Source: Tabrizicola sp.
Lineage (GTDB): Bacteria; Pseudomonadota; Alphaproteobacteria; Rhodobacterales; Rhodobacteraceae
Direction of reading: 5' to 3'
Length of the DNA: 64,000 nucleotides
NCBI RefSeq assembly: GCF_022842145.1
Contig: NZ_JALHQD010000001.1
Span: 750,127 to 814,126 of the forward strand
Shown one piece after another: positions 18,494 through 32,641 of this stretch. Within the stretch, counting starts at the first letter, position 1; every line of letters begins with the position of its first letter. The position numbers and the translations under genes were made by a program. The notes under the pieces were generated by a model. The model was not told the origin of the DNA. It saw only the letters and a list, made by a program, of their open reading frames with translations, and searched no databases.

Positions 18494-18518
18494 GGAACCG
18501 CGGGGGCGCGGGGGCGTT
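18494..18518 (+). promoter_or_regulatory. EcfG-type promoter for glgC-glgX
   Basis: GGAAC, 16 bases, then CGTT exactly matches the EcfG general-stress consensus. It ends 46 bases before the glgC start, on the correct strand. The spacer is almost all G and C. Confidence 0.65.
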
Positions 18519-18564
18519 GGGCTGTTACATCCAGACCCCTCCCCCGAACTGAAGCGAGGTTGCC

Positions 18565-19776
18565 GTGACCGTCACCCCCGAACTCACCGATACTGTCGCG
18601 ATCGTCCTGGCCGGGGGTCGCGGGACACGCCTGCACGAGCTGACTTCGCGGGACTGCAAGCCGGTGCTGCCCTTCGCACGGTTTCACCGGATAGTGGACT
18701 TCACGATGGCGGCACTTGCGCGGTCCGGGGTGCCGCGGGTGATGGTCGGCACGCAGTATCGGCCGGAAAGCCTGACCTCCCATCTGCGCGAGGTGTGGGG
18801 CCCGGTCTGGCCCGAGGGCGCGTTGATGCTGCGCGACGGTGTGCAGGCCGGGGCGGGCAGCTATCGCGGCACGGCGGATGTGCTGCGGGCCAATGCCGCC
18901 GAGCTGGATGCCCTGGGCACGCGTGAAGTGCTGGTCGTTGCGGCGGACCATGTCTATTCGATGGACTACCGCGGCTTCATCGACGCCCACCGGGAGTCCG
19001 GCGCACCGCTGACCTTGGCGGCGATGCCCGTCCTGCGTGAAGATGCAGGCCGTTTCGGCATCGTGACCGAGGGACCGGGCCACCGGATTGCGGGATTTGC
19101 AGAGAAGCCCGACCAACCGGCGGCGATCTTTGGCGACCCGCAGCACTCGCTGGCGTCGCTGGGGATCTACGTGGTGGACTGGGCCTGGCTGCGCGACGTG
19201 CTGGCGGACCCGAACGTGCTGGACTTTGGCGAGGATGTGATCCCGCTGGCAGTGCACAGCGGCGAAGCGGCTGTCTGGCGCTGGGACGGCTATTGGCGCG
19301 ACGTCGGCACCCTGGACGGGTTGCGCCAAAGCTGGCTGGACTTCGAGGATGGCCCGCCGCCGTGCCGCAGGCCTTTGGTCCCCGGCATGAAGGTCCGGAT
19401 GCAGGCGGCAACGCTCCCGCGCGATGCCTTCACCTCCAGCGTCAATCTGGGCGGGCTGCGACTGATGTCGCCGATGGTGGGCAGTGGCAATCCCGACCGT
19501 TGGACGGCCCTGGACCGGTCGGTCCTGATGCCGGGTGCCCGCGTCTCGCCGGGGGTGCGGTTGACCAATGTCATCGTGGGGCCGAACACGGTCATTCCAC
19601 ATGGGATGCATATCGGCGATGACCCTGAAGAGGACGGGCGCTGGTTCCGGGTTTCGGGCGACACGACGCTTGTCAGCTCGGCGATGCTTGCGCGCCGGGG
19701 CGCGTTGCGGACGCCGGTGTTTTCCCTGTTCCACGGCGGACCGACCCTGCCCCGCAAGGTGCAGGGCGCCCAATGA
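18565..19776 (+). CDS. glgC: Glucose-1-phosphate adenylyltransferase
   Basis: A 403-residue enzyme that makes ADP-glucose, the glycosyl donor for glycogen. The pyrophosphorylase motif is VLAGGRGTRLHELT. YRGTADVL, ADHVYSMDY, GFAEKP and YWRDVGTLD bind substrate, and the left-handed helix C-terminus has LDRSVLMPGARVSPGV. The start is GTG with GAGG seven bases upstream. Its last codons overlap the glgX ATG. glgA and glgB are absent from the window. An exact EcfG promoter lies upstream, so glycogen turnover may be stress-controlled here. Confidence 0.95.
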   Translation: MTVTPELTDTVAIVLAGGRGTRLHELTSRDCKPVLPFARFHRIVDFTMAALARSGVPRVMVGTQYRPESLTSHLREVWGPVWPEGALMLRDGVQAGAGSYRGTADVLRANAAELDALGTREVLVVAADHVYSMDYRGFIDAHRESGAPLTLAAMPVLREDAGRFGIVTEGPGHRIAGFAEKPDQPAAIFGDPQHSLASLGIYVVDWAWLRDVLADPNVLDFGEDVIPLAVHSGEAAVWRWDGYWRDVGTLDGLRQSWLDFEDGPPPCRRPLVPGMKVRMQAATLPRDAFTSSVNLGGLRLMSPMVGSGNPDRWTALDRSVLMPGARVSPGVRLTNVIVGPNTVIPHGMHIGDDPEEDGRWFRVSGDTTLVSSAMLARRGALRTPVFSLFHGGPTLPRKVQGAQ

Positions 19777-21815
19777 TCCACGATTCCTCGATGACGCCCG
19801 CTTTCGATGCAACCAAAGGCCGCCCCGATACGATGGGGGCGGTCTCGGATGGTGAAGGCACCAACTTCGCCCTGTTTTCGGAGAATGCCACCCGGGTCGA
19901 GCTGTGCCTTTACGACACCGAGGGCAAGGTCGAGGTGGCGCGGCTGGACCTGCCCGCCATGCATGGCGGGATCTGGTTCGGCTATCTGCCGGGCGTCGGG
20001 CCGGGACAGGTCTATGGCTACCGGGTCCACGGACCCTGGGCGCCTGAGGAAGGGCATCGGTTCAATCCGGCGAAACTGCTTCTTGACCCCTACGCGCGAG
20101 AACTGCGCGGCGAGCTGACCTGGGACCCGGCCGTCTTCGGGCACAATGGCGATGATCTGACGCGGGACGACCGCGACTCGGCCCCTTTCGTGCCGAAGGC
20201 TGTGGTGGCGGACCCCGCGTTCGACTGGAACGCCGATGAGGCGCTGCGCCACCGCTGGGAAGAGACGCTGATCTGGGAGGTGCATCCGAAGGGTGCCACG
20301 ATGCGCCATCCGGAGGTGCCGGAGAACGATCGCGGGTCGCTTTGCGGTCTGGCCTCGGACCCGATGATCAAACATCTGCAGCGGATCGGCGTGACGGCGG
20401 TGGAGCTTTTGCCGATGCACGGCTTCCTGCATGACCAGTTCCTGCTGGACAAGGGGCTGAAGAATTATTGGGGATACAACACCTTGTCCTTCTTCGCCCC
20501 GCACCGGGCCTATCTGAAGACGGGCCGCGCGAACGAGGTGAGACAGGTTGTGCAGAAGCTGCACAAGGCGGGGATCGAGGTGATCCTGGACGTGGTCTAC
20601 AACCACACGGCGGAGGGCTCGGAGCTGGGGCCGACGCTGTCGTTCCGGGGGATCGACAATGCTTCGTACTACCTTCTGGCCGAGGACAAGCGGCACTGTT
20701 TCGACACGACCGGCTGCGGCAATACGCTGAACGTGGCGCATCCGATGGTGCTGCGGATGGTGATCGATTCCCTGCGCTACTGGGTGCAGGTGATGCATGT
20801 GGACGGCTTCCGCTTCGACCTGGCGTCGACCCTGGGGCGCGAGGCAAAGGGGTTCGAGCGCGAGGGGTCGTTCTTCGCGGCAATCCGGCAGGACCCGGTG
20901 CTGGCGCAGGTCAAGCTGATCGCCGAGCCCTGGGACATCGGCGAGGGCGGGTATCAGGTCGGCGGCTTCCCGTTCCCGTTCCGCGAATGGAACGACAAGG
21001 CGCGCGACGACATGCGGGCTTTCTGGCGCCGCGATCCGGGGATGAAGGGCGATCTGGCGCAGCGTTTGCTGGGGTCTCCGATCCAGTTCGACCATTCGCA
21101 GCGTCCGGCGACGTCGTCGATCAACTTCCTCGCGGCGCATGACGGTTTCACCCTGCGCGATGTGGTCAGCTACGACGGCAAGCACAATGAGGCCAACGGC
21201 GAAGACAATCGCGACGGCCACGACCATAACCTGAGCCACAACCTTGGCGCCGAGGGGCAGACAAATGATCCCGGCATCCTTGAGGCGCGGCACCGCCGGT
21301 CGAAGGCGATGCTGGCGACGGTCATGCTGTCGCAGGGCGTGCCGATGATCCTGGCGGGGGACGAGTTCGGGCAAAGCCAGGGCGGCAACAACAACACCTA
21401 CGCGCAGGACAGCGAGATTTCCTGGCTGCACTGGGAAGCCGCCGACGCGCGGTTGGTCGATGCGGTGGCGACGCTGATGGCGTTCCGCAAGAAGGTCTCG
21501 TTGGGGGATGCACGCTTTGCCCGCGCCGTCGGGGAAGGCGATGGCCCCGCGATCAGCTGGCATCACGCCTCGGGCGAGATGGGTGACGGTGACTGGGATC
21601 AAGAGGGGCCGCTTGGGCTGCGTTATCACCGGACAGAGGCGGATCTTCTGATCGTGCTGAACGCTGGACACGATGCGACCTTCATCTTGCCGGACGGGTC
21701 GTGGCGGCGCCAGCTGGATACCGCGCACGATCCCATCGTGGCCGACAGGGTGGAGACGGGCGAAGTCCAGGTCGGGTGGCAGACCGTGTCGGTTTGGGAA
21801 GAGGTCGCCGGTTAG
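19773..21815 (+). CDS. glgX: Glycogen debranching enzyme GlgX
   Basis: A 680-residue GH13 isoamylase-type enzyme that removes alpha-1,6 branches from glycogen or limit dextrin. An N-terminal CBM48-like domain (about 15-120, GTNFALFSENATRVELCLYD) leads to the (beta/alpha)8 barrel with VVYNHTAEG, the nucleophile aspartate in DGFRFDLAS, the acid glutamate in LIAEPWDIG and LAAHDGFTL. It overlaps glgC by 4 bases, so both respond to the same promoter. Confidence 0.95.
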   Translation: MIHDSSMTPAFDATKGRPDTMGAVSDGEGTNFALFSENATRVELCLYDTEGKVEVARLDLPAMHGGIWFGYLPGVGPGQVYGYRVHGPWAPEEGHRFNPAKLLLDPYARELRGELTWDPAVFGHNGDDLTRDDRDSAPFVPKAVVADPAFDWNADEALRHRWEETLIWEVHPKGATMRHPEVPENDRGSLCGLASDPMIKHLQRIGVTAVELLPMHGFLHDQFLLDKGLKNYWGYNTLSFFAPHRAYLKTGRANEVRQVVQKLHKAGIEVILDVVYNHTAEGSELGPTLSFRGIDNASYYLLAEDKRHCFDTTGCGNTLNVAHPMVLRMVIDSLRYWVQVMHVDGFRFDLASTLGREAKGFEREGSFFAAIRQDPVLAQVKLIAEPWDIGEGGYQVGGFPFPFREWNDKARDDMRAFWRRDPGMKGDLAQRLLGSPIQFDHSQRPATSSINFLAAHDGFTLRDVVSYDGKHNEANGEDNRDGHDHNLSHNLGAEGQTNDPGILEARHRRSKAMLATVMLSQGVPMILAGDEFGQSQGGNNNTYAQDSEISWLHWEAADARLVDAVATLMAFRKKVSLGDARFARAVGEGDGPAISWHHASGEMGDGDWDQEGPLGLRYHRTEADLLIVLNAGHDATFILPDGSWRRQLDTAHDPIVADRVETGEVQVGWQTVSVWEEVAG

Positions 21816-21818
21816 ACC

Positions 21819-21844
21819 GGAACCCGCGCGAGGAGCCGGGCGTT
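21819..21844 (+). promoter_or_regulatory. EcfG-type promoter for the general stress FMN protein
   Basis: GGAAC, 17 bases, then CGTT begins just after the glgX stop and ends 36 bases before the next ATG. Exact match to the EcfG consensus, on the coding strand. Confidence 0.65.
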
Positions 21845-21880
21845 GGGATTGGTAACGCAGTCTTCCAACGGAGAACGGTA

Positions 21881-22399
21881 ATGGCTCTCGTCAGCGACCA
21901 CGACAACACGCAAAATCCGCCTAACATCCAGCCCATCCCGGCCGAACGGGTCTGGGAAATGCTGAAGGCGATCGACATCGCCATGCTTGTCACGCGCAGC
22001 GCCGAAGGCCTGCGTGGACGGCCGATGTCGACAATCCCCACGCCGGAAAAAGGTGTGATCTACATCCTTACCGAAAGCGACAGCTCTGCCGCGCGGGACA
22101 TCCGCGTCGATGGCTCGGTCTTCCTTGGGTATCAGGGCCGGGGCGACCATGTTGCGCTGATCGGGCAGGCGATGGTCGATCCGGACAAGGGCCTGGTCAA
22201 GGACCTGTGGAATCCGGGCGCCGAGATTTTCTGGCCGCGCGGCCCCGAGGCGCATGATGTCGTGGCGCTGGTGATCGATCCGGGCCACGCCGATGTCTGG
22301 GACGGACCGGGCATCCTGCGCGGGATCGCCGAGATCGTCGTGGGCGCCGTAAAGGGCAAGTCTCCCGACGTTGGCTCCCGCGGCGAGGTCGAGCTATAA
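21881..22399 (+). CDS. General stress protein, pyridoxamine 5'-phosphate oxidase-like
   Basis: A 172-residue protein of the split-barrel FMN-binding superfamily, in the general-stress-protein-26 branch. It shows IDIAMLVTRSAEGLRGRPMST, then IYILTESDSSAARDI and HVALIGQAMV, the usual order of barrel strands. A characterised stress-protein relative binds FMN/FAD, but the reaction is unknown. GGAG precedes the ATG. The exact EcfG promoter upstream supports a stress role. It converges with the AI-2E gene; only one base separates the stops. Confidence 0.86.
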   Translation: MALVSDHDNTQNPPNIQPIPAERVWEMLKAIDIAMLVTRSAEGLRGRPMSTIPTPEKGVIYILTESDSSAARDIRVDGSVFLGYQGRGDHVALIGQAMVDPDKGLVKDLWNPGAEIFWPRGPEAHDVVALVIDPGHADVWDGPGILRGIAEIVVGAVKGKSPDVGSRGEVEL

Positions 22400-22400
22400 C

Positions 22401-24254
22401 CTAGGCAGCCACGACGGCCTGTTTGTCGAAGGCTTGGGCAAAGAGCTCTTCCATGCTGGCGACAGCGAAATCCGCCGCGCCCTTTCCGGGCGGGGCGGGT
22501 TTCGTTTCAGAGGGATCGGCCCACAGGGCTAGACCGACCTTCACGCCCGGCAGCCGCCGCCGTAGCAGGCGGATCTGCAGATCGACAGCCGCCCGGTGGG
22601 CAGAGTCCAGCGACACCACCAGGATGGTTTCCGGGGTGAAATCGCCAAGCAGCCGCGGAAGCGAGGCGCGAGGCGGCAGATTGACCGCAGAGGCCCCTTC
22701 AGCCCGCAGCGCCTGGGCGATCATCCGGGCCGCCGCCTCGTCCAGACGGGTCAGCGCACCCATCACCGCGATGTTGCGACCAAGACCGTCCAGAACGCCA
22801 TTCGAGACCAGGGACAGCGGCGGTTCGCCGTCGGTCTTGGTTTCCGGAGCTTCGACCGCAAGCGCCAGTTCTTCCTCGATCACCGATTCCAGTTCCTCGG
22901 TCAGGGTCCAGGCGGCATTGGCGATGCGCTGGGTCTGGAAGTCCGACAGAAGGCCGGCGGAATGGTCGGCCTGCGCGAGCGCCAAAGCCGGGATCGCCGT
23001 CTTGTCATAATAGTCGGCGAGGTAATGCTTCGAGGTCGAGGTGGTGGCGGCGTCGGTGAACTCGAAAATGCGACCAGCGAGAAGACGGTCGTAAAGCCGC
23101 GCGGAATCGGCCAGCACGGGCTTGTCGCCGAACATGATCGGAAAAAGCCGCAGGCTGGGAACGTGGTGACCGATCACCACCATGCAGACGGTCAGGGGCG
23201 TGGCGATGATCAGCCCCATCGGCCCCCAGAGCCAGGTCCAGAACATCGCCGAGACGATCACGGCCAGCGGCGAGACGCCGGTGCGGTGGCCGTAGAACCA
23301 GGGTTCGATGATGTTCGAGGTGACGAATTCGACCACCAGGAACAGCGCGCCGGTCCAGAGGACCAGCGACCAGTCCGGAGAGACGGCGAAGGCCATCAGC
23401 AAGGGCAGGATCGCCGAGATCGCCGAGCCGATGTAGGGCACAAAGCGCAGGACAAGGGTGACCAGGCCGAAGAACAGCGCGTTCGGCACCCCGATGATCC
23501 ACAGGCCAAGGCCGATCGGAATGGCGTAGATGACGTTCACGACAAGCTGCGCCAGAAGATAGGTCGACACGCGGCCCCCCGCCTCGGCCAGAAGGCGCGA
23601 GGTGGCAAGGATGTTGGACCCCCCGATCAGCTGCACGAGACGGTCCCGCAGGGTCGCGCGTTCCAGGAGGGCGAAGATGACGACTACGAAGATCAGGCCG
23701 AAGATGCCCACGGGGGCAAGCGCAGGAAGGATGACGTCGGTCAGCCACTCGCGAACACCCGGCTGGTCGACGACCTCGACCTTCATGGTCGGATCCGAGG
23801 TAGAGGGGTCAGCGGCGATCCGGTCCGAGATCCGTTCGACCAGGCCCTGCAGGTGCGCGATGACCCGACTGTCCGCCCCGGCAGAAAGCAGCGTATCGAC
23901 CTTGGTCAGAACGTTGCCCTGATACTTTGGCAGGTTCATGCCGATCTGGCTGAGCTGGTAGGCCAGGACCAGGACGAAAGCGGCCACCAGCGCGCCGGCC
24001 GACAGAACGGTGAGGATCACGGCGGCAGTATCACGGAGGCCCCAGCGGCGCAGATAGTTGACCACGGGCGTCAGGATGAAGGCAAAGAGCATCCCCAGAG
24101 CCAAGGGCAGAAACAGGTCCTGGGCGACGTACAGGATGGCGCAGACCGCAATGATGGTGGCCAACGTGGTCAGCGACACGATCGAATTGCCGGTTTCGGT
24201 CCAGAGATCGGGGCGATCCTGTCTGGTCATCGCGGTGTCATCGGTCTTTGCCAT
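22401..24254 (-). CDS. AI-2E/PerM family membrane protein with C-terminal extension
   Basis: A 617-residue protein. Residues about 20-370 form the AI-2E (UPF0118) permease fold: paired helices near LATIIAVCAILYVAQDLFLPLAL and, later, YAIPIGLGLWIIGVPNALFFGL, then LRFVPYIGSAISAILPLLMAF and WTWLWGPMGLIIATPLTVC. These proteins move small molecules or cations; the AI-2 role is known for few. The last 240 residues are soluble: a helical acidic stretch, then an alternating alpha/beta part (AARMIAQALRAEG, ILVVSLDSAHR, RLLRRRLPGVKVGLALW) that resembles a small Rossmann-like or B12-binding-like fold. Start chosen for AGGGA six bases upstream. An exact EcfG promoter precedes it. Confidence 0.85.
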   Translation of the reverse strand: MAKTDDTAMTRQDRPDLWTETGNSIVSLTTLATIIAVCAILYVAQDLFLPLALGMLFAFILTPVVNYLRRWGLRDTAAVILTVLSAGALVAAFVLVLAYQLSQIGMNLPKYQGNVLTKVDTLLSAGADSRVIAHLQGLVERISDRIAADPSTSDPTMKVEVVDQPGVREWLTDVILPALAPVGIFGLIFVVVIFALLERATLRDRLVQLIGGSNILATSRLLAEAGGRVSTYLLAQLVVNVIYAIPIGLGLWIIGVPNALFFGLVTLVLRFVPYIGSAISAILPLLMAFAVSPDWSLVLWTGALFLVVEFVTSNIIEPWFYGHRTGVSPLAVIVSAMFWTWLWGPMGLIIATPLTVCMVVIGHHVPSLRLFPIMFGDKPVLADSARLYDRLLAGRIFEFTDAATTSTSKHYLADYYDKTAIPALALAQADHSAGLLSDFQTQRIANAAWTLTEELESVIEEELALAVEAPETKTDGEPPLSLVSNGVLDGLGRNIAVMGALTRLDEAAARMIAQALRAEGASAVNLPPRASLPRLLGDFTPETILVVSLDSAHRAAVDLQIRLLRRRLPGVKVGLALWADPSETKPAPPGKGAADFAVASMEELFAQAFDKQAVVAA

Positions 24255-24282
24255 TCTGTCCCTCGTATGAACCGCGGGAAGC

Positions 24283-24307
24283 AACGTTCAAGCAGTATGG
24301 TGGTTCC
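24283..24307 (-). promoter_or_regulatory. EcfG-type promoter for the AI-2E family gene
   Basis: On the minus strand GGAAC, 16 bases, CGTT is an exact match ending 28 bases before the ATG at 24254. It is one half of a divergent pair of stress promoters. Confidence 0.65.
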
Positions 24308-24340
24308 CTGCCGGCCGGCGTCGCAGTTGGAACCGCTTCG

Positions 24341-24365
24341 GGAACTTCACGGGCGTTTGGGCGTT
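24341..24365 (+). promoter_or_regulatory. EcfG-type promoter for the 161-residue unknown protein
   Basis: GGAAC, 16 bases, CGTT, exact match, 30 bases upstream of the ATG at 24396. Its -35 element is 33 bases from that of the divergent minus-strand promoter. Confidence 0.65.
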
Positions 24366-24395
24366 GCGGCTTTGTATCGGGTGAGGAGATTGGAG

Positions 24396-24881
24396 ATGGC
24401 GTCAGTGACGAGCGGGCAGCAGGTTATTCTGATCAATGACGCGGTTCTGAATCTGCCGCGCGAAACCTTGGCGCTGGACGCGGACGCGGTGATCTTCGTG
24501 GCCGGACGGTCGCTGGTCCAAATGACCCTCGCCGAGCTTGCACTGCCCGGCGCGCAGATGATCTGGACCGATTTCCGCCAAAGCGCGTCGCTGAGCGCGT
24601 TGAACGCAACGTTGCAGGCGGCTGGTGGCGTCGACCGGCTGATCCTTGCGGCCGATGGCGCAGAAAGCGAGGCCGTGTTTTCGCTGATGTGCGCCGTGCT
24701 GACTTTCCGCCCTGCCTTGCGTCGTCGTCGCGATGCGCGGATCGACCTGATCCTGGAAGACGGCCAGGCCGTGGGCTCGATGGTCGAGTTTCTCAAGCGG
24801 ATCGGTGGGACGCTGGACCTGGACGGAATCTCGACAGAGCTGCGGATCTGCGACCGGAGGCCCGTTCAAGCCGTGGCCTGA
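24396..24881 (+). CDS. Hypothetical protein, predicted general stress target
   Basis: A 161-residue soluble protein beginning MASVTSGQQVILINDAV, with GGAG just upstream of the ATG. I do not recognise a family. It alternates predicted strands and helices (VILINDA, DAVIFVAGRSL, AQMIWTDFRQ, VDRLILAADGAE, ARIDLILEDG) in a Rossmann-like rhythm but has no glycine-rich nucleotide motif. An arginine cluster (PALRRRRDAR) lies near residue 110. The exact EcfG promoter and divergent AI-2E gene tie it to the stress response. Confidence 0.75.
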   Translation: MASVTSGQQVILINDAVLNLPRETLALDADAVIFVAGRSLVQMTLAELALPGAQMIWTDFRQSASLSALNATLQAAGGVDRLILAADGAESEAVFSLMCAVLTFRPALRRRRDARIDLILEDGQAVGSMVEFLKRIGGTLDLDGISTELRICDRRPVQAVA

Positions 24882-24994
24882 AACGGTTGAGTGAGAGCGC
24901 GAGCCAATCCCATCCCGATGCCCGGTGTCACCTCGCACACCGATTGGCAGCATCCTTGCCCACGAGAGACAAGCTTGAACTTCCCTAGAGCGAC

Positions 24995-25024
24995 AAAAAA
25001 AGGGCTGCGAGGTCATCGCAGCCC
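24995..25024 (-). terminator. Rho-independent terminator for the UPF0391 gene
   Basis: A perfect 9-bp stem (GGGCTGCGA with TCGCAGCCC, 5-base loop) is followed on the minus strand by seven T. It lies 48 bases after the stop of the small membrane protein gene. The best intrinsic terminator in the window. Confidence 0.88.
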
Positions 25025-25071
25025 AGTATGGGAAGGCGGCAGGGAAGGACCGCTTCCTCAGGGGTCGGTGG

Positions 25072-25233
25072 TCACCTGGTCATCATTCCGCGCACGAGCG
25101 AGATGACGAACAGGATGATGAAGATCACGAACAGGATCTGAGCGATCCCGGCCGAAGTGCCAGCGATGCCGCCGAAGCCAAGGACGCCGGCGATGATCGC
25201 GATGATCAGGAAAGTAACAGCCCAACCTAGCAT
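25072..25233 (-). CDS. UPF0391/DUF1328 small membrane protein
   Basis: A 53-residue protein starting [19 protein letters not shown] and ending [10 protein letters not shown]. It has two hydrophobic helices joined by a glycine-rich turn ([12 protein letters not shown]), the standard YtjA/DUF1328 form. Function is unknown; relatives are often stress-induced. AAGGAG lies seven bases before the ATG, and a strong terminator follows. A near-consensus EcfG site (GGAAC, 17 bases, TGTT) lies about 60 bases upstream on its strand. Confidence 0.9.
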
Positions 25234-25291
25234 GGGTTTTCTCCTTGCATTTCAAAGCGCCCTTGGGGGGGCATAACGTCGTATCGGCGAA

Positions 25292-25319
25292 GGAACACCC
25301 GACCGGCGGGATCGGTTCC
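25292..25319. promoter_or_regulatory. Near-consensus, two-way EcfG-like element
   Basis: The plus strand reads GGAAC, 17 bases, GGTT; the minus strand reads GGAAC, 17 bases, TGTT. Each -10 differs from CGTT by one base. It lies between the divergent UPF0391 gene and the 25506 stress-protein operon. Plausible but weaker than the exact sites. Confidence 0.35.
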
Positions 25320-25505
25320 CTTGTCCAAGCAAGAATTCCGGAACGCGCGAAATGCGCCACATAGGTTGGGGTCCGCTTGCGCGGAAAACCTTGGGCAACG
25401 CCTACGGGAACCGGATCGGCCATTTGGGACTTGTATCCCCACATTGGCCGCGCGGCGACGCAGCGGCGGCCCAAAGCTTCCAATACGGATTTCAGGAGAA
25501 TTGCG

Positions 25506-26174
25506 ATGAACGCGAGTGACAAGGACACCTCGAACCGGAACCAGATGCAGTCCGGATCGAACGGGGATCTCGGCACCAAGGTGCAGGACGCCGGCATGGC
25601 CGCGATGCGCGCGGCCGAAGGTGCGGCCGGAACCGCGAAGGCCAAGATGGACGACATGGGCGATGCGGTGCGTGACACGGCAACGTCCCTGAAAGACTCG
25701 GCATCCGACGCGATGGACGAAGGCCGTTCGCGCATCGGCGGGATCATGGGCAAGGCCCAGGACATGGCGCAGGACACCAAGGAGGCGATCGTCTCCGGTG
25801 CCGGCTCGACCCTGTCGGCGGTCAAGGATGTTGCGGTCGAGAAGGCCGACATGGCACGCGAAAGCCTGTCGGATGTCGGTCAGCGGCTGGCGGCAACGCT
25901 GGAACGCGCCTCCGAGGACGGCGACAGCGATGCGCTGAAATCGCGGGTGCTGACTTCGGTCGCCCACGGACTGACCTCGGCTTCTGACGCGCTGCGCCAG
26001 CGGTCGGTCTCCGAGCTGACGGCTGATGTGAAGACGCTGGCCAAGCGCCATCCGGGGGCTTTCATGGCCGCCGCGGCAGTGGTCGGCTTTGCCGCGGCGC
26101 GGTTCATCCGGTCGTCGAGCAAGCGCCATCTGGCCGAGCGTGACAACGATTACGGCCAGGGACCGCGGGTCTGA
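25506..26174 (+). CDS. LEA-like/YtjH-type stress protein with C-terminal membrane helix
   Basis: A 222-residue, alanine-, aspartate- and lysine-rich protein. Residues 20-150 repeat an amphipathic pattern (VQDAGMAAMRAAEG, AKAKMDDMGDAVRDTATSL, KAQDMAQDTKEAIVSG) like late-embryogenesis-abundant or apolipoprotein-type helices. Near the C-terminus KRHPGAFMAAAAVVGFAAARF is a membrane anchor in the style of YqjD/ElaB. AGGAG precedes the ATG. It is the first of three overlapping genes (stress protein, YqjE-like, DUF3618), the usual YqjDEK-type envelope cluster. Probably binds the inner face of the membrane under stress. Confidence 0.78.
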   Translation: MNASDKDTSNRNQMQSGSNGDLGTKVQDAGMAAMRAAEGAAGTAKAKMDDMGDAVRDTATSLKDSASDAMDEGRSRIGGIMGKAQDMAQDTKEAIVSGAGSTLSAVKDVAVEKADMARESLSDVGQRLAATLERASEDGDSDALKSRVLTSVAHGLTSASDALRQRSVSELTADVKTLAKRHPGAFMAAAAVVGFAAARFIRSSSKRHLAERDNDYGQGPRV

Positions 26175-26593
26175 TGCGCGGCGCTGACCATGAAACGGAG
26201 GGCATGCGGACGCTGCTCTCCGAGGTGATCGGTGGCATGGGGCGCCTCGTTCGGGGCGAACTGATGCTGGCCAAGGCCGAAGCGACCGAGGGCGTCAAGG
26301 CTGCCGTCGGTGGCCTGATCAAGATGGTCGTCGCGGCGATCATCGCTTTGGTCGGCCTGAACGTACTGGCCGGGGCGGCGGTTGCCGCCCTGGCGGCGAC
26401 GGGGCTTGGCCCGGCCTGGGCGGCGGTGATCGTCGGTATCGCCTTGTGCGTACTGGCCGTCATCCTTGCACTGGCGGGAAAGTCGGCCCTGCGGCTTCGC
26501 GGCGTGATGCCCGACCGGGCGATGCGCGGTCTTCGGCGTGACGCACAAGCGGTGCAAGCCGGTCTGAACGAGACGGGAGCAACACATGTCTGA
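26174..26593 (+). CDS. YqjE/holin-superfamily III membrane protein
   Basis: A 139-residue protein with an amphipathic N-terminus (MRTLLSEVIGGMGRLVRGELMLAKAEATEG) and two close helices (VVAAIIALVGLNVLAGAAVAAL and WAAVIVGIALCVLAVILAL). This is the YqjE/phage-holin-like DUF1469 pattern. The holin name reflects fold similarity; no phage genes are nearby. Its ATG overlaps the preceding TGA and its end overlaps the DUF3618 gene by 8 bases. Confidence 0.85.
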   Translation: MRGADHETEGMRTLLSEVIGGMGRLVRGELMLAKAEATEGVKAAVGGLIKMVVAAIIALVGLNVLAGAAVAALAATGLGPAWAAVIVGIALCVLAVILALAGKSALRLRGVMPDRAMRGLRRDAQAVQAGLNETGATHV

Positions 26594-27488
26594 ACAAAAG
26601 ATGCACGAGATCGAACAGTCGCTGGAACGCGAACGTCAGGCTCTGGCGGAAACGCTGGTGGCGCTTCGCCATCGGCTAAGCCCGTCGACCCTGATCGCCG
26701 AGGGCAAGGAGGCGCTGATGTCGCACGCCTCGCCCCTGGTGTCGCGGGTGGATGGCGCGGTGCGTTCGCATCCGATGGCTGCGGCAGCGGCGGGCGTCGC
26801 TTTGGCGGCGCTGATCTTCGGGCGCCGGGCGCTGAGCGACAACCACTCGCCCGTGGTGGTGCCGGTCACGCCGGGCACGCGGTTTGAGGCGCTAACCCGG
26901 TGGGAAGGCGAAGGCGGGCCGCCAGCGGACGATCCGGTCGACCCCGAAGAAGACTGGCTGAAGCATGCACGCGGGTTGCGCTACAGCGCCAAGCAGATGC
27001 TGCGGCAGATTGACGATGCTGCGCGGCGGGGGCTTGCCCCGGCAGCGCAACTTGCCAAGCACCGGGCGGAAGTGGTGTCGGCCCTTGCGGTCGAGACGCG
27101 CGACGCCTTGGGCAGGGGCCTGGAAACCATGACCGGGGTAGCCCGCGAACAGGCGCTTCAGGCACGCGAGCGGATCTATCTGGGCCGGATTGCTGTCGCC
27201 GAGAAGGGCCGCCAGCAGGTCGAGGAGCATCCTCTGCTGACCGGTGCGGTGCTTGCCGCCGCGGGCGCCGGGCTGGCCTTCCTGTTCCCGCCGACCGAGA
27301 CCGAAGACCGGTTGATGGGCGAGGCGCGCGACGCTTTGCTGGACGAGGCGTTCACCGCCGCGAAGACCGAGGCGATGCGGGCCAGCGAACTGGCGCAGAC
27401 CCTTGGCTCGGCGCTGAAGAGTGACGTGCAACACGCCGCGTCGATGTTCACGCCGGCGGACCAGCGGACAGTGGTTCGGCACCACTGA
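26586..27488 (+). CDS. DUF3618-domain membrane-associated protein
   Basis: A 300-residue protein. The N-terminal DUF3618 segment (about 7-60) reads IEQSLERERQALAETL, then LRHRLSPSTLIAEGKEAL. A helix at SHPMAAAAAGVALAALIFGRR and a second at HPLLTGAVLAAAGAGLAFLFPP flank a long helical region. Both helices start at HP, as in YqjD-type anchors. Last gene of the three-gene stress operon, followed by a hairpin terminator. Function in the family is not known. Confidence 0.82.
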   Translation: MSEQKMHEIEQSLERERQALAETLVALRHRLSPSTLIAEGKEALMSHASPLVSRVDGAVRSHPMAAAAAGVALAALIFGRRALSDNHSPVVVPVTPGTRFEALTRWEGEGGPPADDPVDPEEDWLKHARGLRYSAKQMLRQIDDAARRGLAPAAQLAKHRAEVVSALAVETRDALGRGLETMTGVAREQALQARERIYLGRIAVAEKGRQQVEEHPLLTGAVLAAAGAGLAFLFPPTETEDRLMGEARDALLDEAFTAAKTEAMRASELAQTLGSALKSDVQHAASMFTPADQRTVVRHH

Positions 27489-27507
27489 ACCATGATTGAA
27501 ATGAATG

Positions 27508-27531
27508 AACCGGCCCCGATGCGGGCCGGTT
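27508..27531. terminator. Shared hairpin terminator between convergent genes
   Basis: A perfect 9-bp stem, AACCGGCCC with GGGCCGGTT around a 6-base loop, fills the 45-base gap between the DUF3618 gene and the kinase gene. The plus side is followed by CTTCATT rather than a clean T-run. It may serve both directions. Confidence 0.65.
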
Positions 27532-27533
27532 CT

Positions 27534-29228
27534 TCATTGCGGTCGACTGCGTCGCGGGAAGACAAGGTCGACCGCGGCGCGACCGCCCTCCAGCCGGATG
27601 GTGACCGTTCCCGACAACTGCGCCGCGAACTGCTTGAGCATCCTTTGGGGCAATGAAACCAGGCCTTGCGTCAGGTGGGGTTGCAACTCGGCGACTTCGG
27701 GTCCCCGCACGCAGAGATGGATGGCGCCATCGGTCTCGCTTAGCGTGACCGAGACCTCGTCCTGCCCCAACCCCCCGCGCGAGAAGTAGCAGCCGACCGC
27801 CTCGGCCAAGGCGAGCGCCAGAGGCACGGCGGCCTCGGCATCGATCCGGACAGGTTGCAGCTGCTTGGTGGCCACGCCCAGCGCGACACCGTGGATTTCC
27901 TTCAACCGCTTGATGACATTGGACAGAATGACGTCCACCGACACGTCGCGCTGCCCCGACAGGGTGTACAGGCTGGTATGGGTGGACGACAGCGCGATGA
28001 CCCGGTTGATCAGGCCGTCCAGCACCGAGCGCAGCTTCTGGTCCGACGCCTCGCGCCGATACATCCGCATGATCGAGGCGATGATCTGCAGGCTGTTGCC
28101 ACTGCGGTGGGTGACTTCGCGGATCAGAAGATCCTTGTCGACGACCAGGTTCTGCAGTTCCGCCTCTTCCTGCTCGATGGTGCGGATCATGCCTTCATAG
28201 GCGGCATGCAGGCGCTGGATCTCGGCCGGGGAGTCCGCCATGTCGGGAATGCGCAGCCGTTGGCGGAAGGAGACGTAGTCGGTCATGGACCGCGACAGCG
28301 CGCGAACGTGGCGGACGACAAGGCGATTGGAGGCAAAGGCGGCGGCGACCAGGGCGGCGACCCAGGTCAGCACCGGCATCAGATAGGGGACGGCGACGTT
28401 GGTCCAGAAGCTGGCGCTGTCCGGCCGCCAGACCGAAACGACGTAGAGGTCGCGCGCGACCGAAACCACCGAGAGAATATTGCGCCCGTCCGGTCCTTCG
28501 ACGAAGCGGGCAGAGTCCGCCGTGGTAAGATCGGCAATGGACCGGCCATCGGGTATCGCCGCTTCCAGCGGCACCTCGGGGTCCGAGGACACCAGCACCT
28601 TGCCCTCGGCCGTCAAGGTCGCAAGGTAGGACGGACTCCACATCGCGATGCTGTCGGAGTACGCGCCGGGCGCAACCGCATTATAGGCCAGAGATATCGC
28701 GACAAAGCCGGACAGGCTGCCGTCGCCGCCAAAGACCGGATGCCGGACCATCACGATTGCCTGCTGGGAAAGCTCTCCGTTGGGCTCATAGCCAAGGCCG
28801 GGGGCGGGGACCTTCATGACAGCTTGAAAGCGGGGATCCTGGGACAGGTCGTAAACCTTGCCATTCGACGAACAGGTCAGAAGGCCGCTGGTCGGGACGT
28901 AGGCGACCACGGTGGCCTGGGCGATCTCGCGCTTGATGGCCGACACCTGTTCCATGCAGGAGGGGCCGCCGGTGAAGGGTCGGGACAGGACCGTCGCCAG
29001 CACCCGCGCCGATACCTGCGCTTCCTTTATGACCTCGACCTGATCGCGCACGGCCTGGAGGGCGGCGCCACCAATGCCCTTGAGCGTCGAGGCATCCACC
29101 TGTTCCAAAGCCTCACGCGTCTGGACGACCGACAGCACCCCAAGCGGCATCAGCGCGAGAATGATGGTAGAGCCAAGGCGGACGCCTAGGCTGCTGAAGG
29201 ACAGAAGCGCTTTGATTCTGCGGATCAA
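27534..29228 (-). CDS. Sensor histidine kinase of the general stress response (HisKA_2 type, degenerate ATPase)
   Basis: A 564-residue membrane protein: helix about 16-35, extracytoplasmic sensor about 36-277, second helix about 278-300, HAMP-like linker, then a HisKA_2 dimerisation region with H374 in REVTHRSGNSLQIIASI. Kinases of this family phosphorylate PhyR. The C-terminal ATPase part is odd: where the N-box (NELxTNAxKHA) should be, I read LALALAEAVGCYFSRGG, and no DNGxG box is visible. It may be a weak kinase, a phosphatase or a scaffold. It overlaps ecfG by 4 bases as third gene of nepR-ecfG-kinase. Confidence 0.85.
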   Translation of the reverse strand: MIRRIKALLSFSSLGVRLGSTIILALMPLGVLSVVQTREALEQVDASTLKGIGGAALQAVRDQVEVIKEAQVSARVLATVLSRPFTGGPSCMEQVSAIKREIAQATVVAYVPTSGLLTCSSNGKVYDLSQDPRFQAVMKVPAPGLGYEPNGELSQQAIVMVRHPVFGGDGSLSGFVAISLAYNAVAPGAYSDSIAMWSPSYLATLTAEGKVLVSSDPEVPLEAAIPDGRSIADLTTADSARFVEGPDGRNILSVVSVARDLYVVSVWRPDSASFWTNVAVPYLMPVLTWVAALVAAAFASNRLVVRHVRALSRSMTDYVSFRQRLRIPDMADSPAEIQRLHAAYEGMIRTIEQEEAELQNLVVDKDLLIREVTHRSGNSLQIIASIMRMYRREASDQKLRSVLDGLINRVIALSSTHTSLYTLSGQRDVSVDVILSNVIKRLKEIHGVALGVATKQLQPVRIDAEAAVPLALALAEAVGCYFSRGGLGQDEVSVTLSETDGAIHLCVRGPEVAELQPHLTQGLVSLPQRMLKQFAAQLSGTVTIRLEGGRAAVDLVFPRRSRPQ

Positions 29229-29803
29229 AATCCAGCTGCAGCCGAGCGCATCACGACTGCCTGGGTTGCACCGTCGGTTCCGGCAAACATGTCCTCTCCG
29301 TCTTCCAGATGTAGCATCTCTGCCAGACGCTTCCTTGCGCGACTAGCACGACTTTTCACCGTGCCGATCGCGACGCCCATCATCTCGGCAGCTTCTTCGC
29401 AGGAAAAGCCCGACGCGCCCACCAGAATAAGGACTTCGCGGTGTTCCGGGCTAAGCTTGTCGAAGGCGCGCTGGAATTCCTGCATCGCCATATGTCCGTC
29501 GTGGGCAGGCTTGACGGACAGGGTCGCGGCATGGATGCCATCGCTGTCCTGCACCTCGCGGCGGCTTTTGCGTAGCGATGAATAGAAGGTGTTGCGCAGA
29601 ATCGTGAAAAGCCACGCGTCAAGGTTCGTGGCGGGGTCAAATTTTTCAATGTTGGACCAGGCTTTCAGGATCGTGTCCTGCACCAGGTCGTCTGCAAAGG
29701 TCGCATCGCGCGCCAGACTGATGGCGAAAGCGCGCAGTTTCGGAATAGCCCCAGCAAGCCGATCCCTAGGATCCGCGTGGGTCGTCCGTATGGTTGCGGT
29801 CAT
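29225..29803 (-). CDS. ecfG: EcfG-type RNA polymerase sigma factor
   Basis: A 192-residue ECF sigma factor controlling the general stress response. Region 2 has FADDLVQDTILKAW and NLDAWLFTILRNTFYSSLRKSRRE. Region 4 has LSPEHREVLILVGASGFSCEEAA, continuing into GTVKSRASRARKRLAEML. NepR holds it inactive until phosphorylated PhyR takes NepR away. Its ATG overlaps the nepR TGA (ATGA), so sigma and anti-sigma are translationally coupled. Two EcfG promoters upstream imply positive autoregulation. Confidence 0.95.
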   Translation of the reverse strand: MTATIRTTHADPRDRLAGAIPKLRAFAISLARDATFADDLVQDTILKAWSNIEKFDPATNLDAWLFTILRNTFYSSLRKSRREVQDSDGIHAATLSVKPAHDGHMAMQEFQRAFDKLSPEHREVLILVGASGFSCEEAAEMMGVAIGTVKSRASRARKRLAEMLHLEDGEDMFAGTDGATQAVVMRSAAAGF

Positions 29804-29973
29804 TCTGTCCCGCCCTTGTCCACGCCCTTGATCTTCAGTTGCTCGAGAAGATCGCGGAACCGATCCGGCAGTTCCTCGTTCAATGTGGCCGTGTAGACCC
29901 GCCGCAGGTTCTCATCGATCTGCGTCCGGATAGCCTGCTTTTTTGGCACATCCTCGTCCTTTTCCTTCTTCAT
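29800..29973 (-). CDS. nepR: NepR anti-sigma factor
   Basis: A 57-residue protein, MKKEKDEDVPKKQAI at the start and the NepR core IDENLRRVYTATLNEEL followed by PDRFRDLLEQLK. The two helices (about 17-31 and 37-48) are those that bind EcfG or PhyR. GGAA sits five bases before the ATG. It overlaps ecfG by 4 bases and is divergent from phyR, the standard arrangement in alphaproteobacteria. Confidence 0.95.
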   Translation of the reverse strand: MKKEKDEDVPKKQAIRTQIDENLRRVYTATLNEELPDRFRDLLEQLKIKGVDKGGTE

Positions 29974-30002
29974 GACGTTCCATTCCCAGATTCTGCGCCA
30001 CC

Positions 30003-30027
30003 AACGCGCCTAAGCGTTCCAGGTTCC
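30003..30027 (-). promoter_or_regulatory. Proximal EcfG promoter for nepR-ecfG
   Basis: Minus strand GGAAC, 16 bases, CGTT, exact consensus, ending 29 bases before the nepR ATG. Confidence 0.7.
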
Positions 30028-30065
30028 AAAATAGCACGGACTCTGAGAAATTTCTCGCGGTGACG

Positions 30066-30090
30066 GGAACTGAACGTCGAGTGGCGCGTT
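30066..30090 (+). promoter_or_regulatory. EcfG promoter for phyR
   Basis: Plus strand GGAAC, 16 bases, CGTT, exact consensus, ending 39 bases before the phyR ATG. It overlaps an opposite-strand EcfG promoter almost completely. Confidence 0.72.
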
Positions 30091-30097
30091 TGGTTCC
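30073..30097 (-). promoter_or_regulatory. Distal EcfG promoter for nepR-ecfG
   Basis: Minus strand GGAAC, 16 bases, CGTT, exact consensus. It is offset by only 7 bases from the phyR promoter, the two forming an imperfect palindrome (GGGAACTGAACG against CGTTTGGTTCCC). Confidence 0.65.
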
Positions 30098-30129
30098 CGA
30101 AGAATTATGCAAAACTGGGAGAGACATTG

Positions 30130-30939
30130 ATGTTCGCACAGGAAGCGGTTGATCATTCCGCAACGGTGGCCCGTCACCTTCCCTATCTGCGCCGCTATGC
30201 ACGTGCGTTGACGGGGAACCAGTCCAGCGGTGACAAGTATGCCATCGCAGTCCTGGAATCGATCATCGCGGATCCGACGCTGATGGGCTCACATGCAGAG
30301 CCCAAGGTTGCTCTCTTCTCGGTCTTCCATTCGATCTGGTCCACCGCGGGCGCGCCCGTGGCGGACGCCGAGGATCTGCTGGCCGGTGCAGCGCAGGCGC
30401 ACATGGCTGGGCTGACCCTGAACTCGCGCGAGGCGTTGCTGCTGAACACCGTCGAGGCCTTCGACCATGACGAGGTCGCGGCGATCATGGGGATCGACTC
30501 GGACGAGGCGAGACATCTCATCGACGTCGCCGTGCAGGAGATGGAGCGGTCCGTGCGCGGTGCAGTTCTGGTGATCGAGGACGAGGCCATCATCGCGATG
30601 GACATCGTGGCGATCGTCGAGGCGATGGGACACCGGGTCACGTCCAATGCACGGACCCATGCCGAGGCCGTGGACATGGCTGCGGCCGAAAAGCCCGACC
30701 TCATTCTGGCTGACATCCAGCTGGCCGACAATTCTTCGGGCATCGATGCGGTCAACGAGATCCTGGGTCAGTTCGGCAATATCCCGGTGATCTTCATCAC
30801 CGCCTTCCCGGAACGCCTGTTGACTGGCGAACGGCCCGAGCCGGCTTTCCTGATCAACAAGCCCTACACCGAAGAGCAGGTCCGCTCGGCGGTCAGTCAG
30901 GCGATGTTCTTCTCGTCGACGGCGACATTGCGGGCCTAG
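30130..30939 (+). CDS. phyR: Anti-anti-sigma response regulator PhyR
   Basis: A 269-residue regulator. Residues 1-140 form the sigma-like domain (HLPYLRRYARALTGNQ; LTLNSREALLLNTVEAFDHDEVA split by a turn). Residues 144-265 form the receiver with acidic E150-D151, phosphoacceptor D195 in LILADIQLAD and the late lysine in INKPYT. When phosphorylated, the sigma-like domain binds NepR and frees EcfG. The ATG was taken over a TTG three bases upstream. It is divergent from nepR across a 156-base region with three EcfG promoters. Confidence 0.96.
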   Translation: MFAQEAVDHSATVARHLPYLRRYARALTGNQSSGDKYAIAVLESIIADPTLMGSHAEPKVALFSVFHSIWSTAGAPVADAEDLLAGAAQAHMAGLTLNSREALLLNTVEAFDHDEVAAIMGIDSDEARHLIDVAVQEMERSVRGAVLVIEDEAIIAMDIVAIVEAMGHRVTSNARTHAEAVDMAAAEKPDLILADIQLADNSSGIDAVNEILGQFGNIPVIFITAFPERLLTGERPEPAFLINKPYTEEQVRSAVSQAMFFSSTATLRA

Positions 30940-30948
30940 GGGCCTGTG

Positions 30949-30974
30949 GGAACCACAGGGCCTGCGGCGGGGTT
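30949..30974 (+). promoter_or_regulatory. Near-consensus EcfG site before the phospholipase D gene
   Basis: GGAAC, 17 bases, GGTT (one mismatch in the -10) lies between the phyR stop and the proposed GTG start at 31003. It would fit a stress promoter for that gene. Confidence 0.35.
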
Positions 30975-31002
30975 GAACCGGGGAAGCATTCCCCGGAGCG
31001 AC

Positions 31003-32583
31003 GTGCCGCAGCCCGCCCGACGACCCCACCCATCGCCACCCCAGGTCGAAATCCTCGTCACCGCGGCCGAGGCCTATCCGACGCTGGAGCGGGCCTTTCT
31101 GGACGCCCGTCACGAGATCGTGGCGGGCTTTCGGGTCTTTGACCTGAAGACGCGGTTGCGGTCACCCGAGGGCATGGCGGTAGGTGCCACCTGGTTTGAC
31201 CTTATCATCCATACCTTGCGGCGCGGGATCGAGGTGCGGATCGTGCTGTCGGACTTCGATCCGGTGGCACGACCGCGTCTCCACCGGGCCACGTGGCGCA
31301 CCGTGCGGATGTTCTGGGCAGCGGCCGAAATGGCCGGGCCGGGTGCAAAGCTGACCGTCATTCCATCCATGCATTCGGCAGTGGCAGGGCTTTGGCCGCG
31401 GCTGCTGTTCTGGCCCGTGGTGGCCTCGCGGCTGGGGCGGGTGGCCGGCTGGTTGAGGCGCCAAGTGGTGTCGCACCGCTTGCGTGCGCTGCGCGAGATG
31501 CCGGGTGTGCAGCGGATGCTGGTGGCAAAGGACGAGATTCCGCGCCCCCGGCTGTTTCAGATCCCGCCGCTGTATCCCGCGACGCATCACCAGAAGCTGG
31601 CGGTCTTTGACGGCAAACGACTTTACATCGGCGGCCTCGATCTGGACGAGCGGTTCTACGACACGCCCGAACATCGCCAACCGGGCAACGAGACCTGGCA
31701 TGACGTGCAGCTGATGCTGGAAGGTCCCGTGGCGGACGATGCCCGGACACATCTTCTGAATTTTCTGGACATCATCCTTGGTCGGCATCCGCCCGGTGAG
31801 CCGGCCCCGGAGCATGCCGGGGTCCGCTTTGTCCGAACCCTGTCTCGAAGACGGGGGCGCGGTGCGTGGCGGTTCATCTCGCCCGAGCCGGTCGTTTCGG
31901 AAATCGAAGCGGCCCAACGGTCCGCGATCAGCGCGGCGCAAGGGTTGATCTATGTCGAGACGCAGTATTTCCGTGATCGGCGCCTTGCAAGGTTGCTGGC
32001 CGAGGAGGCACGAGAAAAGCCCGGGTTGCGGATGATCCTCATCCTGCCCGCCGCGCCCGACGACGTGGCCTTCGAAGGTTCGACCGGGCTGGACGCGCGG
32101 TTGGGCGAGTTTCTCCAGGCAAAGTGCCTGCGCATCCTGCGGCGGGGTTTTGGTCGGCGACTTTTCGTGGGCGGCGCCGCCCAGCCACGGCGGACGCAGG
32201 CAAAAGGCCGGGCGCAATTGCGGGGTGCGCCATTGGTCTACATCCATGCCAAGGTCAGCCTCTTCGACGACACCACCGCCATCGTGTCTTCCGCCAATCT
32301 GAACGGCAGATCGCTGCGCTGGGATACCGAGGCCGGTGTCGTGCTGACCGATCCCGGTCCGGTGATCCGGCTGCGCAAACGGCTGATGACGCACTGGCTG
32401 CCGGTTGGTGCAGCAGCGGACTACTTCGATCCCGACCGCGCTGTGGCCGCTTGGTGGGCTTTGGCGTCGCGCAACGCAAAGTTGCCACCGGACAAGCGGC
32501 GCGGGTTCCTTTTGCCCTATGACCTGAAATCGGCCGAGGACTTTGGCCGGGCCTTTCCACTGGTCCCCGACGAGATGGTCTGA
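31003..32583 (+). CDS. Phospholipase D / cardiolipin synthase-like protein
   Basis: A 526-residue PLD-superfamily protein with both HKD motifs: THHQKLAVFDGKRLYIGG (H196, K198) and YIHAKVSLFDDTTAIVSSAN (H415, K417). The pair form one active site for phosphodiester hydrolysis or transfer, probably on phospholipids. No signal peptide is evident; residues around AGLWPRLLFWPVVASRL may touch the membrane. I use the GTG at 31003 because GGAG lies four bases upstream. A GTG at 30946 in the same frame is possible but overlaps a candidate promoter. It follows phyR directly. Confidence 0.87.
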   Translation: MPQPARRPHPSPPQVEILVTAAEAYPTLERAFLDARHEIVAGFRVFDLKTRLRSPEGMAVGATWFDLIIHTLRRGIEVRIVLSDFDPVARPRLHRATWRTVRMFWAAAEMAGPGAKLTVIPSMHSAVAGLWPRLLFWPVVASRLGRVAGWLRRQVVSHRLRALREMPGVQRMLVAKDEIPRPRLFQIPPLYPATHHQKLAVFDGKRLYIGGLDLDERFYDTPEHRQPGNETWHDVQLMLEGPVADDARTHLLNFLDIILGRHPPGEPAPEHAGVRFVRTLSRRRGRGAWRFISPEPVVSEIEAAQRSAISAAQGLIYVETQYFRDRRLARLLAEEAREKPGLRMILILPAAPDDVAFEGSTGLDARLGEFLQAKCLRILRRGFGRRLFVGGAAQPRRTQAKGRAQLRGAPLVYIHAKVSLFDDTTAIVSSANLNGRSLRWDTEAGVVLTDPGPVIRLRKRLMTHWLPVGAAADYFDPDRAVAAWWALASRNAKLPPDKRRGFLLPYDLKSAEDFGRAFPLVPDEMV

Positions 32584-32615
32584 TGCGCGGTTTTTTGCCA
32601 AGCGTCGGGGGTTGG

Positions 32616-32641
32616 GGAACTCATCCCAGAGGTAGCACGTT
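32616..32641 (+). promoter_or_regulatory. EcfG-type promoter for the PRC-barrel protein
   Basis: GGAAC, 17 bases, CGTT, exact consensus, ending 55 bases before the GTG start at 32697. Confidence 0.65.

Follow-up and report, generated by a model that had tools for sequence, protein, structure and literature searches.

The general stress locus and its linked genes

The 64-kb stretch of Tabrizicola sp. DNA analyzed here (the window) carries the PhyR-NepR-EcfG switch of the alphaproteobacterial general stress response, and between the two divergent units of this switch lies a 32-bp element (30066..30097) in which two EcfG-type promoter sequences are superposed on opposite strands. The minus strand encodes a PhyK-like HisKA_2/HWE histidine kinase (27534..29228), recognized from profiles and sequence and bearing an HRSGN motif, the adjoining EcfG sigma factor (29225..29803; PF04542, PF08281, and NF009198 above its cut-off), and the NepR anti-sigma factor (29800..29973; PF18557 above cut-off). 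The anti-anti-sigma response regulator PhyR is encoded on the plus strand (30130..30939; PF22029, PF22233, and PF00072, with NF006623 above its cut-off). The three genes therefore stand together, with nepR-ecfG divergent from phyR, and these profile matches bear out an earlier sequence-only reading, which had placed nepR, ecfG, and phyR within one cluster of EcfG-type promoters. An HRxxN motif is found a second time, as HRIKN, in a CHASE-HWE histidine kinase (33765..35402, minus strand; PF03924 and PF07536) that is likely a second input to the switch. By name, the close relatives are Tabrizicola, Rhodobacter, and other Rhodobacteraceae.

Two exact EcfG-type sites precede nepR-ecfG, a proximal one (30003..30027, minus strand) ending 29 nucleotides (nt) before the nepR start codon and a distal one (30073-30097, minus strand) ending 99 nt before it. 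The distal site is the minus arm of the superposed element, whose plus arm (30066-30090) ends 39 nt before phyR. At the left end of the island, an exact site (18494..18518, plus strand) ends 46 nt before the GTG start of a gene for a GlgC-like glucose-1-phosphate adenylyltransferase (18565..19776, plus strand; PF00483, with no NCBIfam glgC model reaching its cut-off), which is followed by the gene for the glycogen debranching protein GlgX (19773..21815, plus strand; TIGR02100 above cut-off). Another exact site (21819..21844, plus strand) stands 36 nt before the Pyrid_ox_like gene, which encodes a pyridoxamine-phosphate-oxidase-like stress protein of the flavin mononucleotide type (21881..22399, plus strand; PF16242 above cut-off). 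An AI-2E family membrane transporter gene (22401..24254, minus strand; PF01594) is divergent from a gene for a 161-amino-acid protein of unknown function (24396..24881, plus strand; no Pfam match), and each has its own exact site, at 24283..24307 (minus strand, 28 nt before the start) and 24341..24365 (plus strand, 30 nt before the start), respectively. The gene for a small DUF1328 membrane protein (25072..25233, minus strand; PF07043) has an upstream site with one mismatch, GGAAC-N17-TGTT. It is followed by a trio (25506..27488, plus strand; PF07332 and PF12277) encoding a protein that we take to be YqjD-like, a holin_3_6-like protein, and a DUF3618 protein. To the right of phyR lie genes for a phospholipase-D-like protein (31003..32583, plus strand; PF13091 and PF00614) and a PRC-barrel protein (32697..33686, plus strand; PF05239), the latter with an exact site (32616..32641, plus strand) ending 55 nt before its start codon.

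The 161-amino-acid protein is predicted to have a short Rossmann fold like that of the short-chain dehydrogenases/reductases (SDRs), to which its structure model (predicted local distance difference test score, 89.4) was matched by Foldseek. SDR enzymes usually have a catalytic tyrosine. The protein contains no tyrosine and therefore lacks this residue; it is possibly a binding protein rather than an enzyme.

Clustering and conservation of the EcfG-type sites

Exact matches to the EcfG-type promoter pattern, GGAAC-N16/17-CGTT, were scored on both strands. The window contains 11 such sites, compared with a mean of 1.18 and a maximum of 4 in 100 shuffles, and it contains no match to the reversed pattern. 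The sequence-only reading had listed eight sites between 18494 and 32641, each upstream of a gene and on its strand. All eight were recovered, each ending 28 to 99 nt upstream of a same-strand start codon; because nepR has two, they serve seven genes. The total for the interval is nine, however. The additional site (29856..29880, plus strand) is antisense within nepR, overlaps the NEELPDRF stretch of NepR, and does not share the upstream placement of the other eight. It is probably a by-product of conserved NepR codons, and its position within these codons led us to set it aside as a promoter, although it is directed toward phyR. A few relatives also have this antisense site. The two window sites outside the interval are at 5355 (plus strand) and 44222 (minus strand), the latter within a proline-racemase gene. 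The former (5355-5379) is 57 nt upstream of a 690-amino-acid open reading frame that has no Pfam match and adjoins an Hpt-domain gene.

Across the whole genome (4.33 Mb), the pattern matches exactly 75 times and its reversed form 115 times. In the 14,148-bp interval, nine exact sites were found versus 0.22 expected from the density in the rest of the genome. The unusual features are thus local clustering and placement, not genome-wide frequency. The rest of the genome, beyond the window, holds 64 sites: 17 lie between genes and have a start codon 8 to 150 nt downstream, and nine are within a gene near another start. When 16 of the 17 intergenic target genes were scanned against Pfam (L282 was left out), they included genes for ferritin-like, DJ-1/PfpI, cyclopropane synthase, DUF3309, and host-attachment/baeRF proteins, as well as a PAS-HWE kinase with an HRVAN motif and two LuxR-type regulators. 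Within one gene elsewhere in the genome (G000:C6:32316-32342), a pair of exact sites on opposite strands overlaps at a different offset, probably by chance.

A search of related genomes for each motif had been proposed from the sequence alone, and it was carried out in 15 same-genus loci (L039-L053), with the more distant G007 kept apart, and in 68 named loci outside the genus, with 12 hand-chosen Tabrizicola-like loci left out. In the same-genus loci, 200 nt upstream of each gene and 60 nt into it were scanned. Rows were omitted when the orthologue match started after residue 40 (same genus) or 60 (other named loci) or when there was too little upstream sequence. The boxes proved to be kept upstream of orthologues. 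An exact site precedes nepR in 15/15 same-genus loci and 49/60 other named loci, and phyR in 14/15 and 46/67, respectively. The corresponding counts were 11/13 and 11/15 for the AI-2E gene, 10/13 and 3/4 for the gene of the 161-amino-acid protein, 8/11 and 4/4 for the PRC-barrel gene, and 5/13 and 24/35 for the DUF1328 gene, and the Pyrid_ox_like gene has an exact site in all seven of its same-genus loci. The other 14 genes tested in the region have no exact upstream site in the same-genus loci; a promoter was sought without success for the YqjD/holin/DUF3618 trio and, in 12 such loci, for the phospholipase gene. Outside the genus, exact sites precede two of three yqjD, four of 11 holin, and seven of 38 phospholipase orthologues, and the comparison genes crp, ecfG, and the kinase gene gave 0/33, 0/67, and 1/65 in the other named loci. 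Four control patterns (reversed, spacer of 12 to 13, spacer of 20 to 21, and permuted) together gave five matches over 22 genes in the same-genus loci. In the 15 same-genus and 68 further named loci, the boxes are constant and the spacers differ between species. The pattern is that of promoter boxes whose spacers drift.

These comparisons bear on the possibility that the cluster consists of chance GGAAC/CGTT matches in G+C-rich DNA and that the genes are not EcfG dependent. The excess of reversed-pattern matches in the genome counts in its favor, but the local excess, the placement of the sites, their conservation with drifting spacers, and the control patterns all speak against it, and we regard it as extremely improbable. 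The proposal in the sequence-only reading of a linked EcfG regulon was supported by the conservation of the boxes at nepR, phyR, and the stress protein and AI-2E genes, by the joint presence or absence of EcfG, PhyR, and the AI-2E gene in 25 of 25 same-genus genomes, and by a motif density about half as high where EcfG is absent. Its glycogen component did not stand as a shared feature: glgC occurs at the island position in the window and in only two of the 15 same-genus loci (several loci are truncated), with an exact site in one of these two, and the glycogen genes are therefore a local addition.

The superposed element and the turnover of its arms

The sites at 30066 (plus strand) and 30073 (minus strand) had been listed as two separate promoters. 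Both are present, but together they make up a single symmetric element, GGAAC-N2-AACG-N10-CGTT-N2-GTTCC, that had gone unnoticed. The DNA from 30066 to 30097 is pseudo-symmetric and holds overlapping promoters with legal spacers on both strands, and a pattern search found no other copy of the superposed element in the genome. Of 81 loci compared (the window and 80 named ones), 47 have an exact, overlapping pair, with an offset of 31 in 36 loci and 32 in 11. The remaining loci have only the nepR-ward site exact (15 loci), only the phyR-ward site exact (11 loci), both sites without overlap (three loci), or neither (five loci). With one mismatch in all, the superposed pair is present in 71/81 loci at offsets of 30 to 32, and with two mismatches it is present in 74/81, whereas 40 shuffled sets gave no exact pair, none at one mismatch, and a mean of 0.05 at two.

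The survey was extended to 295 genomes from 294 genera of the family, using a pattern that allows mixtures of 16- and 17-nt spacers in place of a stricter class-wide pattern (2/385 genomes). The element occurs exactly once per genome in 60/295 genomes (59 genera), compared with 0/295 for the reversed control, and all 30 of the family elements that were fetched lie between phyR and nepR and/or ecfG. A relative of Rhodobacter sphaeroides, Cereibacter johrii, is among the carriers (L133). One genome of another family (G229) has the element (L139) beside only a weak (27%) PhyR-like match. The 26 NepR loci sampled outside the family comprise 11 with back-to-back sites at offsets of -7 to -10, one (L165) whose pair stands at 31 but carries a mismatch, four with other spacings, four with only the trivial offset of +26/27, and six with no pair. 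Pairs at +26 were discounted because GGAACG and CGTTCC are reverse complements, such that one site yields most of the other.

The symmetry of the element would also suit a hairpin or the operator of a dimeric regulator, with the resemblance to promoters being secondary. The boxes do form a perfect inverted repeat, and mirror position 7 is symmetric in 33/61 distinct elements versus 26.3 expected. However, mirror position 6 is symmetric in 52/61 versus 50.7 expected, and the center of the element carries about 0.1 to 0.3 bit at its inner positions without mirror covariation (the box columns, being fixed by the pattern, are uninformative). The conserved letters are exactly those of two EcfG promoters with legal 16- or 17-nt spacers, and a separate nepR site is present where the minus arm has been lost, as expected of promoters. 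An operator or hairpin is consequently very unlikely.

Within Tabrizicola, the arms of the element have not been equally stable. The proximal nepR site is exact in 13/16 loci (the window and L039-L053) and has at most one mismatch in 16/16. The minus arm of the element has been lost in L046, L047, L049, and L051 (4/15 same-genus loci), and in all four the proximal site is exact; a new promoter thus seems to free the shared arm. In G007, the element is present alone, in a shorter gap.

This turnover bears on a further explanation, in which the superposition is a historical accident: overlapping promoters cannot drift apart, and the offset would reflect ancestry and selection on each promoter separately rather than exclusion between them. 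The geometry does trap overlapping sites, the minus arm was lost in Tabrizicola once a proximal nepR promoter existed, and the carriers all come from one family apart from one distant case. Nevertheless, the gap between nepR and phyR is roomy enough for separate promoters, and the exact element has been kept in 59/294 genera. The divergent AI-2E/unknown-protein pair, moreover, does move in the same genomes, its offset ranging from -41 to +11 among the 11 loci where both of its sites are exact, while the overlapping nepR/phyR pair in the same locus set is always at 31. We give the historical account a little under an even chance. In L045 (9396-9407), the two -35 boxes of the AI-2E/unknown-protein pair overlap as GGAACCGGTTCC (offset, +11), which is another way of sharing an EcfG promoter.

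Presence and absence of the island

The genes for EcfG, PhyR, and the AI-2E protein are all present in 17 of 25 same-genus genomes and all absent from the same eight, at the cut-offs used. Five of these eight genomes are at least 96% complete, and three are 59 to 81% complete. The loci L228-L234 represent several near-complete genomes of the genus from which the general stress switch and its island are missing altogether. In the tim44 loci of seven of the eight switch-less genomes, there is no island gene and no exact site (one of these stretches is 1.8 kb long and one is 6.2 kb). The right flank is also visible in one switch-less genome, G010, where an unrelated oxidoreductase pair occupies the site. 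The block is either there or missing at one defined position, bounded by fxsA and, in this one informative case, by a xanthine/carbon monoxide-dehydrogenase-like operon.

Presence or absence as a block could point to a mobile or horizontally transferred island, as opposed to a neighborhood inherited vertically and lost in places, and both the intact tim44-fxsA flank of the switch-less loci and the oxidoreductase pair in G010 are consistent with this. On the other hand, neither an integrase nor a transposase was noticed among the genes annotated in the island, the core neighborhood was found in 80 named Rhodobacteraceae-type loci, and a single-gene tim44 tree places the absences in at least two groups, one of them nested among carriers, which fits loss. 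A mobile unit is accordingly improbable.

The density of GGAACC-N15/16-CGTT is 7.25 per Mb in same-genus genomes with EcfG and 3.44 per Mb in those without it. The reversed control runs in the opposite direction (7.0 and 11.4 per Mb, respectively); composition therefore differs between the groups and may add to the contrast in density. Same-genus genomes from which the entire block is missing are natural knockouts.

Proposed mechanism and comparison with known systems

The partner-switch genes (HWE kinase, EcfG, NepR, and PhyR) lie in one block with further genes bearing conserved EcfG-type promoters, and we consider it highly probable that this is an EcfG general stress island whose regulators are read from one superposed 32-bp element. 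Several points weigh against this interpretation. The promoter activity of the sites is predicted from their letters, the motif has no genome-wide enrichment over its reversed pattern, and for 38 of the 64 sites beyond the window no start codon lies 8 to 150 nt downstream. The exact element is missing from 235/295 family genomes (a count of exact matches alone, irrespective of PhyR), and the minus arm is gone from four Tabrizicola loci. Since the 25 same-genus genomes are related, the co-occurrence and density tests do not represent independent events. Finally, an R. sphaeroides phyR mutant is described as having no general stress phenotype and mainly membrane-stress effects, and the phyR and ecfG mRNAs of that species respond to different stresses, which counts against tight coupling (PMC5830050).

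According to established biology, stress would lead to phosphorylation of PhyR, and phosphorylated PhyR would remove NepR from EcfG. RNA polymerase containing the freed EcfG would then transcribe the genes for the stress protein, the transporter, the protein of unknown function, and the PRC-barrel protein, together with glgC-glgX in this genome and the regulators of EcfG itself. In the element, the promoters predicted for phyR and, distally, for nepR-ecfG are superposed head to tail on opposite strands, and polymerase bound one way should therefore exclude the other. We infer that EcfG polymerase occupies the element in one orientation at a time and that a shared, mutually exclusive promoter would couple the opposing arms of the switch. 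A second, separate nepR-ecfG promoter (30003) would have been added in this genus.

In the general stress response as reviewed, both units are EcfG driven and phosphorylated PhyR takes NepR away, and autoregulation has been suggested to maintain PhyR/NepR/EcfG stoichiometry (PMC8103513). Partner switching depends on titration, which makes the ratio of PhyR to NepR and EcfG important. A tentative extension, which we think rather unlikely, is that the element acts as a stoichiometry clamp: each firing would yield either PhyR, the activating arm, or NepR-EcfG, the arm of inhibitor and sigma factor, so that the arms keep a set ratio, or one with limited noise, and total output follows the amount of free EcfG, and the separate nepR promoter of Tabrizicola would be an escape, after which the shared arm can be lost. 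The fixing of the arm ratio is the speculative part. If true, the conserved 32-bp element would be a concrete stoichiometry device, forcing opposing units onto one polymerase site. The linked target genes also provide a short list of predicted EcfG targets for Rhodobacteraceae, in which the response has been little studied.

The locus resembles the alphaproteobacterial PhyR-NepR-EcfG (ECF15) locus in its genes, its divergent layout, the EcfG-type promoters on both units, and the adjacent HRxxN kinase (PMC8103513), and its gene order is identical to that of R. sphaeroides (PMC5830050). It differs in that both units are predicted to be read from superposed sites and in that several target genes are linked. 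The Rhizobium etli EcfG regulon has the same GGAAC-N16-CGTT motif, and phyR and ecfG1 are both EcfG1 dependent there, but promoter superposition is not mentioned in the available part of that account (PMC3892343). No description of superposed EcfG promoters was found in the literature searched, which left out most subscription papers.

An architectural parallel to the element is found in the sigma-70 bidirectional promoters of Escherichia coli, which are likewise pseudo-symmetric and have divergent transcripts (PMC12825309); for the present element, such transcripts are predicted. Opposing polymerases cannot bind together at prokaryotic bidirectional promoters, and those of the sigma-70 class share a -10 element and have starts that are usually 18, 10, or 23 bp apart (PMC12825309). 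In the present element, by contrast, whole promoters of the type used by extracytoplasmic function (ECF) sigma factors interleave, the -35 box of one stands beside the -10 box of the other, and the predicted starts would be about 31 bp apart. Since each promoter has a -10 box of its own (30073-30076 and 30087-30090), the element is not placed in the sigma-70 bidirectional class. The terms "sigma factor" and "ECF" are absent from the text of PMC12825309. The superposed promoter may represent a new variant of bidirectional promoter, one serving an ECF sigma factor that drives transcription of its own switch.

Some of the linked genes have counterparts in the EcfG regulon of Sphingomonas melonis Fr1, the table of which contains general stress protein 26, GlgX, a PRC-barrel protein, and a host-attachment protein. 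Gene order differs in that organism, and linkage to phyR is not described in the available portion of the report (PMC6599016). The resemblance extends beyond the island, as the gene classes found at intergenic sites elsewhere in the Tabrizicola genome are also similar to those in the S. melonis EcfG table (PMC6599016).

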